This document shows positions 15,828 through 37,519 of a stretch of 47,267 bases of DNA, piece after piece. Below the pieces are notes generated by a model. The model was not told the DNA's origin. It searched no databases and saw only the letters and a list, made by a program, of their open reading frames with translations. The translations under genes were made by a program, and so were the position numbers. Source of the stretch: Candidatus Falkowbacteria bacterium (lineage in GTDB: Bacteria > Patescibacteriota > Patescibacteriia > UBA11705 > JABHMO01); NCBI GenBank assembly GCA_018674305.1, contig JABHAL010000010.1, forward strand, positions 89,708 to 136,974, given 5' to 3'. Positions within the stretch are counted from its first letter, which is position 1, and every line of letters starts with the position of its first letter.

Positions 15828-15867
15828 CCATGAAGTTATACGAGCATAGCGAGTATATACTTCATGG
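15828..15867. repeat. Palindrome that includes the CCA end of tRNA-Arg
   Basis: CCATGAAGT (15828-15836) pairs with ACTTCATGG (15859-15867), and the stem continues with TATAC/GTATA after one bulged base. Its right end is the encoded CCA of tRNA-Arg. A shorter related hairpin beginning CCATGAAGTTA lies near 15799-15820, so two such units follow the tRNA. Confidence 0.75.
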
Positions 15868-15941
15868 TGCACCCGACAGGATTCGAACCTGTGGCCTCTT
15901 CCTCCGCAAGGAAACGCTCTATCCAGCTGAGCTACGGGTGC
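15865..15941 (-). tRNA. tRNA-Arg (anticodon GCG)
   Basis: A complete cloverleaf of 77 bases with encoded CCA. The acceptor stem pairs GCACCCG with CGGGTGC. The D-arm, T-arm (ACAGG/CCTGT) and anticodon stem (TTTCC/GGAAG) all pair. The anticodon loop TTGCGGA gives anticodon GCG, reading CGC and CGU. Most bacteria instead use an ACG (inosine) tRNA for this box, so GCG is unusual. Three tandem copies of its 5' half lie just upstream. Confidence 0.95.
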
Positions 15942-16212
15942 TAAAATTGATTATGATAACTGCTCTATCCAGCCCCGAAGGGGCCCCTTTGGGGCTGAGC
16001 TACGGGTACCTAAAATTGAATATTAATTATGAATGCTCTATCCACCTACTTGTCCACCGTAGTTTTAACGAAGGTGGAAGCTACGGGTGCCTAAAATTGA
16101 ATGTTAATTATGAATGCTCTATCCAGCCCCGAAGTTAATGGAATAAACTGAGTCCCGATGATTTAACAAAGTTAAATATCGGGATCCCGACGAACGTCGG
16201 GACTACGGGTGC
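15942..16212 (-). repeat. Tandem array of three tRNA-Arg 5' halves, each invaded by a different palindrome
   Basis: Upstream of the intact tRNA-Arg, three copies of its first 25 bases (GCACCCGTAG ... GGATAGAGC) lie in the same orientation at 15962-16010, 16035-16090 and 16116-16212. They are separated by similar 20-25-base AT-rich spacers that all end CAATTTTAG (or one added G). In each copy the D-loop is interrupted. Copy 1 has an AGCCCC ... GGGGCT double hairpin. Copy 2 has a CCACC ... GGTGG hairpin. Copy 3 has two hairpins, CCCGACG/CGTCGGG and TCCCGAT/ATCGGGA. The array accounts for the gene-free stretch 15942-16283, apart from an AT-rich tail after 16213 in which I see nothing. Confidence 0.85.
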
Positions 16213-16283
16213 TAAAAAAAATTATTTAAAAAGAAACCAGAAATCAAACCTCCTTTTGTTTAATTCCTAATTTCTTTTGTGTA

Positions 16284-16805
16284 CTAACGCAGACGAAGAA
16301 TTCTTTCAAAAGTTTCATCAAAATCTTCTTCTTCTCTTTCTAAATCTTCATCAATGTAATTAAGCAAAGCCTCCCTAACTTTTAAGGGATTCACATCTTC
16401 AAGTGGAATTGGCAAACTTTTCCGAACAGCTTTCCTGAAATCCAAGTATAAATACTTGATTGTTGGCGGTTCATAAACAATGGAGAAGCTTTTCAAAACC
16501 TTGTAGGAAAAAAATTGTGTATCCACTATAAGTCCATCCTCACCAACCACGACTGGAATCTTTCTAGCTGTTTGAAAATACTGGAAGATCACAATAAATC
16601 CACCGAGTAAAAGAATAAGTGCAAACAGAAAATTAGATGTCCAAACAGCATAAAACAAAAGTAAAGCTAGTATAACTGAAAACACAATATACCAGATTCT
16701 ACTTCTTTTCTGCTGTACAAATTCTGGAAAATCCCAACTAATATGAATATCACCAATATCGGCCGGCATCTTTGGAGTTGTTAAATCGATCAAAAACTTT
16801 TTCAT
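16284..16805 (-). CDS. Conserved-type two-helix membrane protein (unrecognised)
   Basis: The 173-residue protein has a short N-terminal cytoplasmic part containing WDFPEFVQQKRS. Two adjacent membrane helices follow (about residues 37-78: WYIVFSVILALLLFYAVW, then FLFALILLLGGFIVIFQYF). The remaining domain, about 90 residues, starts KIPVVVGEDGLIVDTQFFSY and looks like a PH-like or DUF5673-type beta fold followed by an acidic helix (LEREEEDFDETFERIL). Function is unknown. The gene stands alone between the tRNA fragment regions, with an AT-rich leader and no Shine-Dalgarno sequence. Confidence 0.75.
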   Translation of the reverse strand: MKKFLIDLTTPKMPADIGDIHISWDFPEFVQQKRSRIWYIVFSVILALLLFYAVWTSNFLFALILLLGGFIVIFQYFQTARKIPVVVGEDGLIVDTQFFSYKVLKSFSIVYEPPTIKYLYLDFRKAVRKSLPIPLEDVNPLKVREALLNYIDEDLEREEEDFDETFERILRLR

Positions 16806-16836: not shown

Positions 16837-16878
16837 GCCAGAGGTAGAGACAATTCATGAATTGTCTCTACCTCTGGC
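16837..16878. repeat. Perfect 42-bp palindrome abutting a tRNA-Ser fragment
   Basis: The left arm begins GCCAGAGGTAGAGACAATTC and the right arm is its exact reverse complement, with the centre between 16857 and 16858. In minus-strand reading it begins with the last bases (GCCA) of the tRNA-Ser 3' fragment, just as the palindrome beside tRNA-Arg begins at CCA. Confidence 0.95.
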
Positions 16879-16960
16879 GGAAGGGGTGGGATTCGCCCGG
16901 CATACGCCGGGCGCCCAGCGCATGCTGGGCGAACCCACAGAACTCTTCCATAGGTTTAGC
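16875..16960 (-). pseudogene. tRNA-Ser 3' fragment with a double palindrome in its T-loop
   Basis: Positions 16875-16895 are identical over 21 bp to the 3' end of the intact tRNA-Ser(UGA) at 17275-17295, exactly 400 bp away. Positions 16931-16960 match its T-arm and variable arm at about 22 of 29 bases. Between these blocks, inside the T-loop TTCGAA, sit two tandem hairpins (16896-16930) with arms CGCCCAGC/GCTGGGCG and CCCGGC/GCCGGG. The D-arm and anticodon arm are absent, so this is not a functional tRNA. Confidence 0.8.
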
Positions 16961-16975
16961 AAATATAAAGTACGT

Positions 16976-17251
16976 TTAAATTTCTATGCTTTCCTCTAAA
17001 ACTTCCTCAAAACTATCAAATCTTTTCCTGATATCCTTTCTTCCATCGCTACTCTTCAAAAACCGCTCTCTTTTTGATACTATCTTTTTCAAAAAGTATC
17101 CTTCATAGAACAAGATAATAAACGGCCTACGATGTTTAGTTGATTTCACTTTCCCTTGTTTATGTTCTTTCATTCTTCGAACTATATCATCCGTCTTTCC
17201 GACATAAAAACTCTTGTCCTTTTTACTTAACAAAACATAAACGAAAAACAT
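16976..17251 (-). CDS. Small GIY-YIG nuclease-like protein (copy 1)
   Basis: The 91-residue protein is a bare GIY-YIG domain of the UPF0213/YhbQ type. FVYVLL and FYVGKT provide the GIY/YIG-equivalent strands, followed by DIVRRMKEH with the catalytic-type Arg and a His, and a C-terminal KKIVSKRERFLKSSDGR helix. No DNA-binding extension is present. It sits in a 400-bp interval between the 3' end of an intact tRNA-Ser and a second copy of that 3' end. This layout resembles an element integrated at a tRNA 3' end. The family is clear; mobility is inferred. Confidence 0.88.
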   Translation of the reverse strand: MFFVYVLLSKKDKSFYVGKTDDIVRRMKEHKQGKVKSTKHRRPFIILFYEGYFLKKIVSKRERFLKSSDGRKDIRKRFDSFEEVLEESIEI

Positions 17252-17274
17252 ATCTTAAAATAATGATTTTTTCA

Positions 17275-17366
17275 TGGCGGAAGGGGTGGGATTCGAACCC
17301 ACGGAACCCTTTGACAGGTTCAACAGTTTTCAAGACTGCCGCCTTCAACCGCTCAGCCACCCTTCC
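17275..17366 (-). tRNA. tRNA-Ser (anticodon UGA)
   Basis: A 92-base class II tRNA with a long variable arm and encoded CCA. The acceptor stem pairs GGAAGGG with CCCTTCC. The anticodon loop CTTGAAA gives UGA. It lies 6 bp downstream of tRNA-Ser(GCU) on the same strand, so the two are probably co-transcribed. The GIY-YIG gene follows 23 bp after its 3' end. Confidence 0.96.
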
Positions 17367-17370
17367 ATGA

Positions 17371-17462
<92 letters not shown>

Positions 17463-36842: not shown

Positions 36843-36879
36843 TTTATGAGCTTGCTTCAGCCTGTATACTCAGGCTTCG
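36843..36879. repeat. 37-bp direct repeat, left copy
   Basis: Identical to 37292-37328 over 37 bp (begins TTTATGAGCTTGCTTCAGCC). It contains a small hairpin AGCCTG/CAGGCT. Similarity continues with mismatches for about 19 bp (GACGCTT, GTG). The stretch from 36880 to 36983 also holds a GC-richer word series (TGCGAGG ... GACGCAATCG) of a type common in CPR intergenic DNA. Confidence 0.92.
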
Positions 36880-36983: not shown

Positions 36984-37280
36984 CTAAAACCACTCCATCG
37001 ATAAATCTTCATATGCGTTATTTTCCTGCTCAATCAAAGCTCGTTTCTTTAAACTTGAACCTGCCTTTAGCTGTTTTTCACGGCAAATCGCAGACCAGGG
37101 ATCTTCAAAAACTTCATAGTACATTAATTTATTAATGTTATAACGGGCAGAAAAAGAACGCGGATACACTTTTTCTTTATGCTGATACATACGGTTACGC
37201 AAATCACTAGTCATTCCCACATAAAGCACCGAATTATACTTATTCGCCAAGATATAAACATAATAATGTTTTTGATTCAT
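36984..37280 (-). CDS. Small GIY-YIG nuclease-like protein (copy 2)
   Basis: The 98-residue protein is a bare GIY-YIG domain. YYVYILANKYNSVLYVGMTS supplies the two signature strands, DLRNRMYQHK the Arg/His helix, and YNINKLMYYEVFEDPWSAIC with REKQLKAGSSLKKRALIE the usual C-terminal helices including the Glu of the family. It lies between perfect 37-bp direct repeats (36843-36879 and 37292-37328, offset 449 bp). It belongs to the same broad family as the copy at 16976, but the two are clearly diverged. Both are bracketed by repeats, which suggests a mobile or repeat-associated gene. Confidence 0.9.
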   Translation of the reverse strand: MNQKHYYVYILANKYNSVLYVGMTSDLRNRMYQHKEKVYPRSFSARYNINKLMYYEVFEDPWSAICREKQLKAGSSLKKRALIEQENNAYEDLSMEWF

Positions 37281-37291
37281 ACGGAGTTTGT

Positions 37292-37328
37292 TTTATGAGC
37301 TTGCTTCAGCCTGTATACTCAGGCTTCG
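37292..37328. repeat. 37-bp direct repeat, right copy
   Basis: Perfect match to 36843-36879. It begins 12 bp upstream of the GIY-YIG start codon, so the gene is transcribed out of the repeat. The rest of the gene-free stretch 37281-37629 holds a diverged repeat tail, an AGGC-TTTTTT/AAAAAA-GCCT hairpin near 37441-37471, one DnaA-box-like TGTGGATAA at 37501, and the terminator listed next. Confidence 0.92.
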
Positions 37329-37519
37329 CAATGACGCTTAAGAGGGTGTTACCACTTTCTCACCTATATTATCTCAGCCCAAAAAGGAATTAACAAAGAG
37401 ATTCTGTCGACCTACCTCGTCAAGATTTATCCCATTTTTTCAAGGCGTTTTTTTAAAATCAAAAAAGCCTGACGAGTTGTCTCGACAAGCTTTATTCACC
37501 TGTGGATAACTTACTTAGT

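Follow-up and report, generated by a model that had tools for sequence, protein, structure and literature searches.

What is a gene for a lone nuclease domain doing between two copies of the 3' end of a tRNA gene? The question is raised by the window analysed here, a stretch of 47,267 nucleotides from Candidatus Falkowbacteria, in a genome of 1.28 Mb of the Patescibacteria type. An intact tRNA-Ser(TGA) gene occupies positions 17275–17366 of the minus strand; it was identified by ARAGORN and Rfam, as were its upstream neighbour tRNA-Ser(GCT) (17373–17462, minus strand) and tRNA-Arg(GCG) (15865–15941, minus strand). The last 21 nt of tRNA-Ser(TGA), at 17275–17295, recur at 16875–16895, exactly 400 bp away on the same strand, where nt 72–92 (T-loop to 3' end) are identical at 21/21 positions in BLAST and gapped alignment (BLAST E 1.5e-7, searched within ±2 kb). 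An earlier note on this DNA had pointed out this repeat and its orientation, and ARAGORN, Rfam and BLAST confirmed both. It had further claimed that a 91-codon GIY-YIG gene stands alone between the copies; the ORF list indeed contains a single gene there (16976–17251, minus strand), which encodes a protein matching PF01541, the Pfam GIY-YIG family, with an E-value of 4e-15. The intact tRNA lies 24 bp upstream of this gene, on the same strand.

The sequence beyond the 21-nt repeat had been described as a diverged T-arm and variable arm. It does differ from the intact gene, but the T-loop of the copy is split by a 36-bp insert, after which the tRNA sequence resumes at nt 47–71. The insert (16896–16931, minus strand) is predicted to fold as a twin hairpin (fold z −4.3), and the decayed variable arm and 5' side of the T arm follow at 16932–16956 (minus strand), matching at 20 of 25 positions when aligned by eye. 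Upstream of nt 47 the remnant is weakly tRNA-like back to about nt 36. Its gapped alignment with tRNA-Ser scored 57, as against maxima of 22.7 and 26.3 for the null of reversed flanks; these scores, together with the recurrence of such copies at other loci, ruled out a chance repeat. Judged from the alignment, a more accurate description of the remnant is the 3' part (nt 47–92) of tRNA-Ser(TGA), its T-loop interrupted by the 36-bp twin hairpin. A perfect palindrome of 42 bp (16837–16878) abuts the remnant and overlaps it by 4 bp. An Rfam scan of the window returned the three tRNAs only and no intron match, and a group I intron surrounding the GIY-YIG ORF was rejected on this result.

The order ftsX, Ser(GCT), Ser(TGA), a gene for a 173-aa protein (16284–16805, minus strand, the downstream neighbour and our reference for empty sites) and Arg(GCG) is kept, whole or largely, in many relatives. 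The spacer between Ser(TGA) and the 173-aa gene measures 469 bp here and 104, 82, 94, 136, 59, 59 and ~1 bp in seven syntenic relatives; at 1–136 bp the latter are too short to fit a GIY-YIG gene, and therefore none is present in them. By this comparison, among the seven relatives and this genome, the site is occupied in this genome only. Two further genomes have a gene nearby: G009 has its own GIY-YIG gene and a partial Ser(TGA) copy on the opposite side of that tRNA; in G015 a GIY-YIG gene lies upstream of Ser(GCT). The earlier note had asked for such a comparison and had allowed that the gene might be fixed here in all relatives, or that the left copy might be a decayed third tRNA-Ser gene. 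The seven empty sites, which lack both gene and remnant, contradict the former. As to the latter, the remnant and the Ser(TGA) of this genome have in common two characters absent in nine relatives, a variable arm longer by 2 nt and the CCCCTTCC acceptor. Since the same lineage-specific peculiarities are present in both, the remnant was made from the Ser(TGA) lineage of this genome, and an old third tRNA-Ser gene was ruled out. The gene thus lies at its presumed target with empty alleles in relatives, as is expected of a homing element, the tRNA being the putative target of the nuclease. The intact tRNA beside the gene retains every presumed target, with no protective sequence change evident.

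The 91-aa protein consists of one GIY-YIG domain, with no separate DNA-binding domain. In an alignment of 38 sequences, Y5, Y16, G18, H30, E62 and K66 were invariant and R26 nearly so. The AlphaFold model has a pLDDT of 94.9, and the closest solved structures by profile and fold are UPF0213 and SLX1, followed by the catalytic domain of I-TevI, although Foldseek gave weak E-values, from 1e-3 upwards. The PF01541 match, the conserved Tyr/Tyr, Arg and Glu residues and the predicted fold place the protein in the GIY-YIG nuclease domain family. A phage origin of the gene was rejected, as no close phage relative was found and weak matches occurred in Listeria phage records only.

The earlier note had called the element minimal. 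It does carry a single nuclease gene, but to call it minimal and unusual would be an understatement, as the arrangement was found again in dozens of genomes. This genome alone encodes eight small GIY-YIG proteins, five of whose genes adjoin tRNAs (Met, Ser, Glu, Arg and Thr); a further match, in a 417-aa frame, we take to be UvrC. Relatives were surveyed through stretches around tRNA and GIY-YIG genes. Across 36 genomes of the class, a tRNA lay within 200 bp of 64 of the 90 small GIY-YIG loci, most of which were found with a tRNA-linked query that favours the tRNA-linked subfamily in such counts; the share expected from the tRNA density of this genome is ~2%. All but one of the 89 nearby tRNAs (88/89) are on the same strand as the GIY-YIG gene, and those downstream often start between −46 and +23 bp from its stop codon. 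The ends of several GIY-YIG ORFs translate into tRNA sequence; at loci L131, L146, L151 and L159 the ORF reads into the next tRNA gene, and therefore the C-termini of proteins annotated there may be tRNA sequence in translation. In the named set, covering one subfamily, a tRNA lay within 250 bp at 53 of 80 loci and on the same strand in 58/59 cases, with linkage extending to Bacteroidota (mostly tRNA-Asn), Omnitrophota, Nitrospirota and Planctomycetota. The tRNA isotype tracks the GIY-YIG phylogeny beyond chance (66 changes vs 77–90 in 200 shuffles). The clades holding loci L001, L004 and L005 are mostly away from tRNAs. Direct repeats flank 39 of 110 tRNA-linked GIY-YIG genes, 8 of 49 other GIY-YIG genes and 9 of 300 control ORFs. 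A second GIY-YIG match in the window (37062–37265), off any tRNA, lies between direct repeats at 36843–36879 and 37292–37352, which have 37 of 61 bp exactly in common and contain a REP-like palindrome; at L001 and L004, both in one genome, off-tRNA GIY-YIG genes have palindromic repeats on either side, as inverted copies.

Partial tRNA copies were sought by gapped alignment, scored against a null of reversed flanks with a cut-off of 26. A total of 72 alignments exceeded the cut-off as compared to none in the null; a single null score, of 26.3, lay above it in a later set. The copies follow a rule of position, with the 5' end of the tRNA found in upstream copies and the 3' end in downstream ones (85 in agreement vs 6); 5' copies upstream numbered 47 and 3' copies downstream 38. 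Most are identical to the host's own tRNA. Several upstream copies end after the second anticodon base, and one locus (L128) displays a clean split of tRNA-Gln, in which the part up to nt 34 is separated from the part starting at nt 35 by a GIY-YIG gene and a whole tRNA-Gln. When breakpoints of the remnants were pooled, no loop enrichment was seen (36/85 vs 32 expected, p 0.24); for the T-loop alone the count was 21 vs 10. In this genome some 15 of 40 tRNAs have partial copies, mostly with no adjoining GIY-YIG gene. Partial copies were found at 28 of 74 tRNAs in the GIY-bearing genomes G000, G015 and G032 and at 1 of 81 in the GIY-lacking genomes G018, G022, G024 and G028 (Fisher p 1e-9), a contrast between seven genomes in which tRNAs of one genome are not independent and the lacking genomes may differ in other respects, e.g., repeat load. 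In the window, three tandem partial 5' copies of tRNA-Arg(GCG) lie at 15942–16215, each with flank and its own different D-arm hairpin insert; no GIY-YIG gene is present at this array.

Inserts are a common feature of the partial copies. The 73 inserts of 15–70 bp fold far better than shuffled sequence (median z −2.7, as against +0.2 for random segments of the same length), lengths of 20, 22 and 30 predominate, and D, anticodon or T loops account for 50 of 85, where 28 were expected (p 7e-7). The 34-bp core of the T-loop insert in the window has one further copy in the genome (≤3 mismatches), in the T-loop of a partial tRNA-Val, and with two copies in all a high-copy REP was ruled out as its source. 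Two hairpin families of this genome keep to one loop each: the first to D-loops of partial Met, Arg and Ala copies (4/4), the second to T-loops of partial Ser and Val copies (2/2). A 20-bp palindrome, by contrast, was found in partial-tRNA loops across several genera; 14 of 36 genomes have it in dispersed form, with up to 39 copies, which ruled out the idea that the hairpins occur only at tRNAs. Its presence was not a significant marker of GIY-YIG presence (14/31 vs 0/5, p 0.13). The predicted loop hairpins are REP-like. In a tRNA-Trp remnant (L148), two D-arm hairpins seem to duplicate TGAA, possibly a short target-site duplication.

We consider it probable that the locus in the window belongs to a widespread group of GIY-YIG elements, free-standing and with one gene each, that settle in tRNA genes; as the earlier note had proposed, an element with a nuclease as its only gene, bracketed by duplicate 3' parts of a tRNA, is supported. 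We favour this reading because of the same-strand gene beside an intact tRNA, the flanking partial copies, the empty sites and the near-absence of such copies from genomes without GIY-YIG genes. The recurrence at many tRNAs and in many bacteria points to overlooked one-gene mobile elements that spare tRNA function, and the best reading is that they are homing-like, with cleavage and mobility as putative activities. A small SLX1/UPF0213-like nuclease would cut the tRNA gene at a stem-loop or close to one. In the repair, the nuclease gene would be copied in together with the part of the tRNA needed for one intact tRNA, and the displaced part of the old tRNA would be left as a decaying remnant. 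At tRNA-Ser(TGA) the 5' half would then be native, the 3' half would have arrived with the gene, and the far side of the gene would hold the old 3' half (~nt 36–92); short palindromic, REP-like hairpins would subsequently gather in the loops of the remnant. Much more tentatively, we suggest that structure-recognising GIY-YIG nucleases of one domain target the stem-loops of structured RNA genes in general (tRNA, and rRNA in CPR bacteria), home with a spare tRNA copy and drive insertion of palindromic micro-elements into loops, so that more than one third of the tRNA genes in some genomes would be scarred.

The element reading has to be weighed against many tRNAs with partial copies and no adjoining GIY-YIG gene, against the copies of the Arg(GCG) array, which resemble plain tandem duplications, and against palindromes dispersed off tRNAs in some genomes. 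It also has against it the presumed targets kept in the intact tRNA, the identity of most partial copies with the host's own tRNA, which gives no sign of foreign replacement, the pooled breakpoints, which are not enriched in loops, and the small number of genomes, seven, behind the contrast between GIY-bearing and GIY-lacking ones. The tRNAs with no adjoining gene and the Arg(GCG) copies would suit a plainer history, in which tRNA genes were duplicated in tandem and then decayed, with GIY-YIG genes merely gathering in the neutral DNA next to tRNAs. The array repeats in tandem a unit of flank and tRNA nt 1–26, and partial duplication at either end of a tRNA yields the positional rule for 5' and 3' copies with no element at all. 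Yet duplication of this kind leaves unexplained why partial copies are nearly absent from GIY-lacking genomes (1/81 vs 28/74), and a neutral bystander would not be expected to show a strand bias of 88/89, a gap of a few bp to the tRNA, an isotype that tracks its phylogeny, or flanking direct repeats far more often than control ORFs; we judge this explanation unlikely. The dispersal of one 20-bp palindrome through 14/36 genomes and into partial-tRNA loops of several genera, and the preferred lengths and loop positions of the inserts (50/85 vs 28 expected), would be in keeping with a mobility that belongs primarily to the hairpins and depends on another enzyme, such as a REP-associated transposase, with remnants and GIY-YIG genes as secondary passengers. 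Given that the D-loop and T-loop families of this genome (4/4 and 2/2) are confined to their partial-tRNA loops, and that the siting of GIY-YIG genes at tRNAs would be left unaccounted for, this appears improbable.

We place on the same low footing a segmental amplification resembling that of phage SegB, in which GIY-YIG breaks at tRNA genes are repaired into tandem tRNA segments and the gene is kept for raising or repairing tRNA dosage, e.g., against tRNA-cleaving toxins. SegB of T-even phages drives amplification of tRNA segments and co-occurs with tRNAs in phages (PMC13096335), and the partial copies can be in tandem; nearly all the extra copies are broken, so that dosage is not raised, and whole duplicate tRNAs are not the pattern. 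The earlier note had likened the geometry to the attL/attR sites of integrase-borne elements, and parts of 18–21 nt of the 3' end do recur downstream of intact tRNAs. A classical integrative element at the tRNA 3' end, or a decayed island whose integrase was lost, is nonetheless very improbable: the GIY-YIG ORF is the only gene between the copies and no recombinase is present there, intact tRNAs have copies on both sides, those of the 5' part upstream (47) being as common as those of the 3' part downstream (38), breaks occur also in D and anticodon loops, hairpins sit in D, anticodon and T loops, spacers measure tens to a few hundred bp, and partial copies are found also at tRNAs that have no GIY-YIG neighbour.

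Patescibacteria have many short GIY-YIG genes, which occur in Bacteroidota as well, and no paper that we found assigns them a role; in the literature covered, which included few subscription journals and no preprints, none dealt with GIY-YIG genes in bacterial tRNA genes. A niche in tRNA genes would explain why these genes sit where they do, would add a naturally occurring example in which an essential gene is broken by an element and yet retained as an intact copy, and would make the origin of the loop hairpins testable through comparison of strains. It would also be a warning for annotation, as partial tRNAs and ORFs entering tRNAs in such genomes would be scars rather than genes.

Among known proteins, UPF0213 and SLX1 are the nearest in solved structure. 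SLX1 is a structure-specific nuclease; it has extra domains and a partner, and we know of neither protein as a mobile element. The hairpins resemble REPs and REPINs in being short, paired and dispersed between genes; typical REPs are high-copy, whereas several of the families described here are low-copy and limited to one loop of partial tRNA copies. In CPR bacteria, rRNA genes carry GIY-YIG ORFs within non-intron inserts, and most catalogued inserts are at the tops or bases of stem-loops (PMC11270868); the bacteria are the same and the genes likewise encode structured RNA, but the host gene is rRNA there and tRNA here. SegB, a free-standing GIY-YIG enzyme of T-even phages and the parallel on the side of the enzyme, is likewise tied to tRNA genes and promotes recombination-dependent amplification of a tRNA-containing segment (PMC13096335); it is phage-borne and whole segments are amplified, and the portion of that account available makes no mention of broken tRNA copies with loop hairpins. 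The parallel in form is provided by the mORFs of fungal mitochondria (e.g., atp6 of Allomyces and Glomus), which are free-standing endonuclease genes, sometimes of the GIY-YIG type, that bring along an end of the host gene and displace the native end beyond as a partial copy (PMC3630166). Here, too, the 3' end of the tRNA gene is partly duplicated on the far side of the nuclease gene, and many loci are built in a similar way. The mORFs are large ORFs in a mitochondrial protein gene and the part that they supply is foreign; here chromosomal tRNA genes are the hosts, the nuclease is a domain of ~90 aa, and the intact 3' half has the same lineage-specific characters as the remnant. What these loci represent, as supported in outline by the sequences, is a new variant of free-standing, homing-like GIY-YIG elements, presumably mobile, at bacterial tRNA genes.
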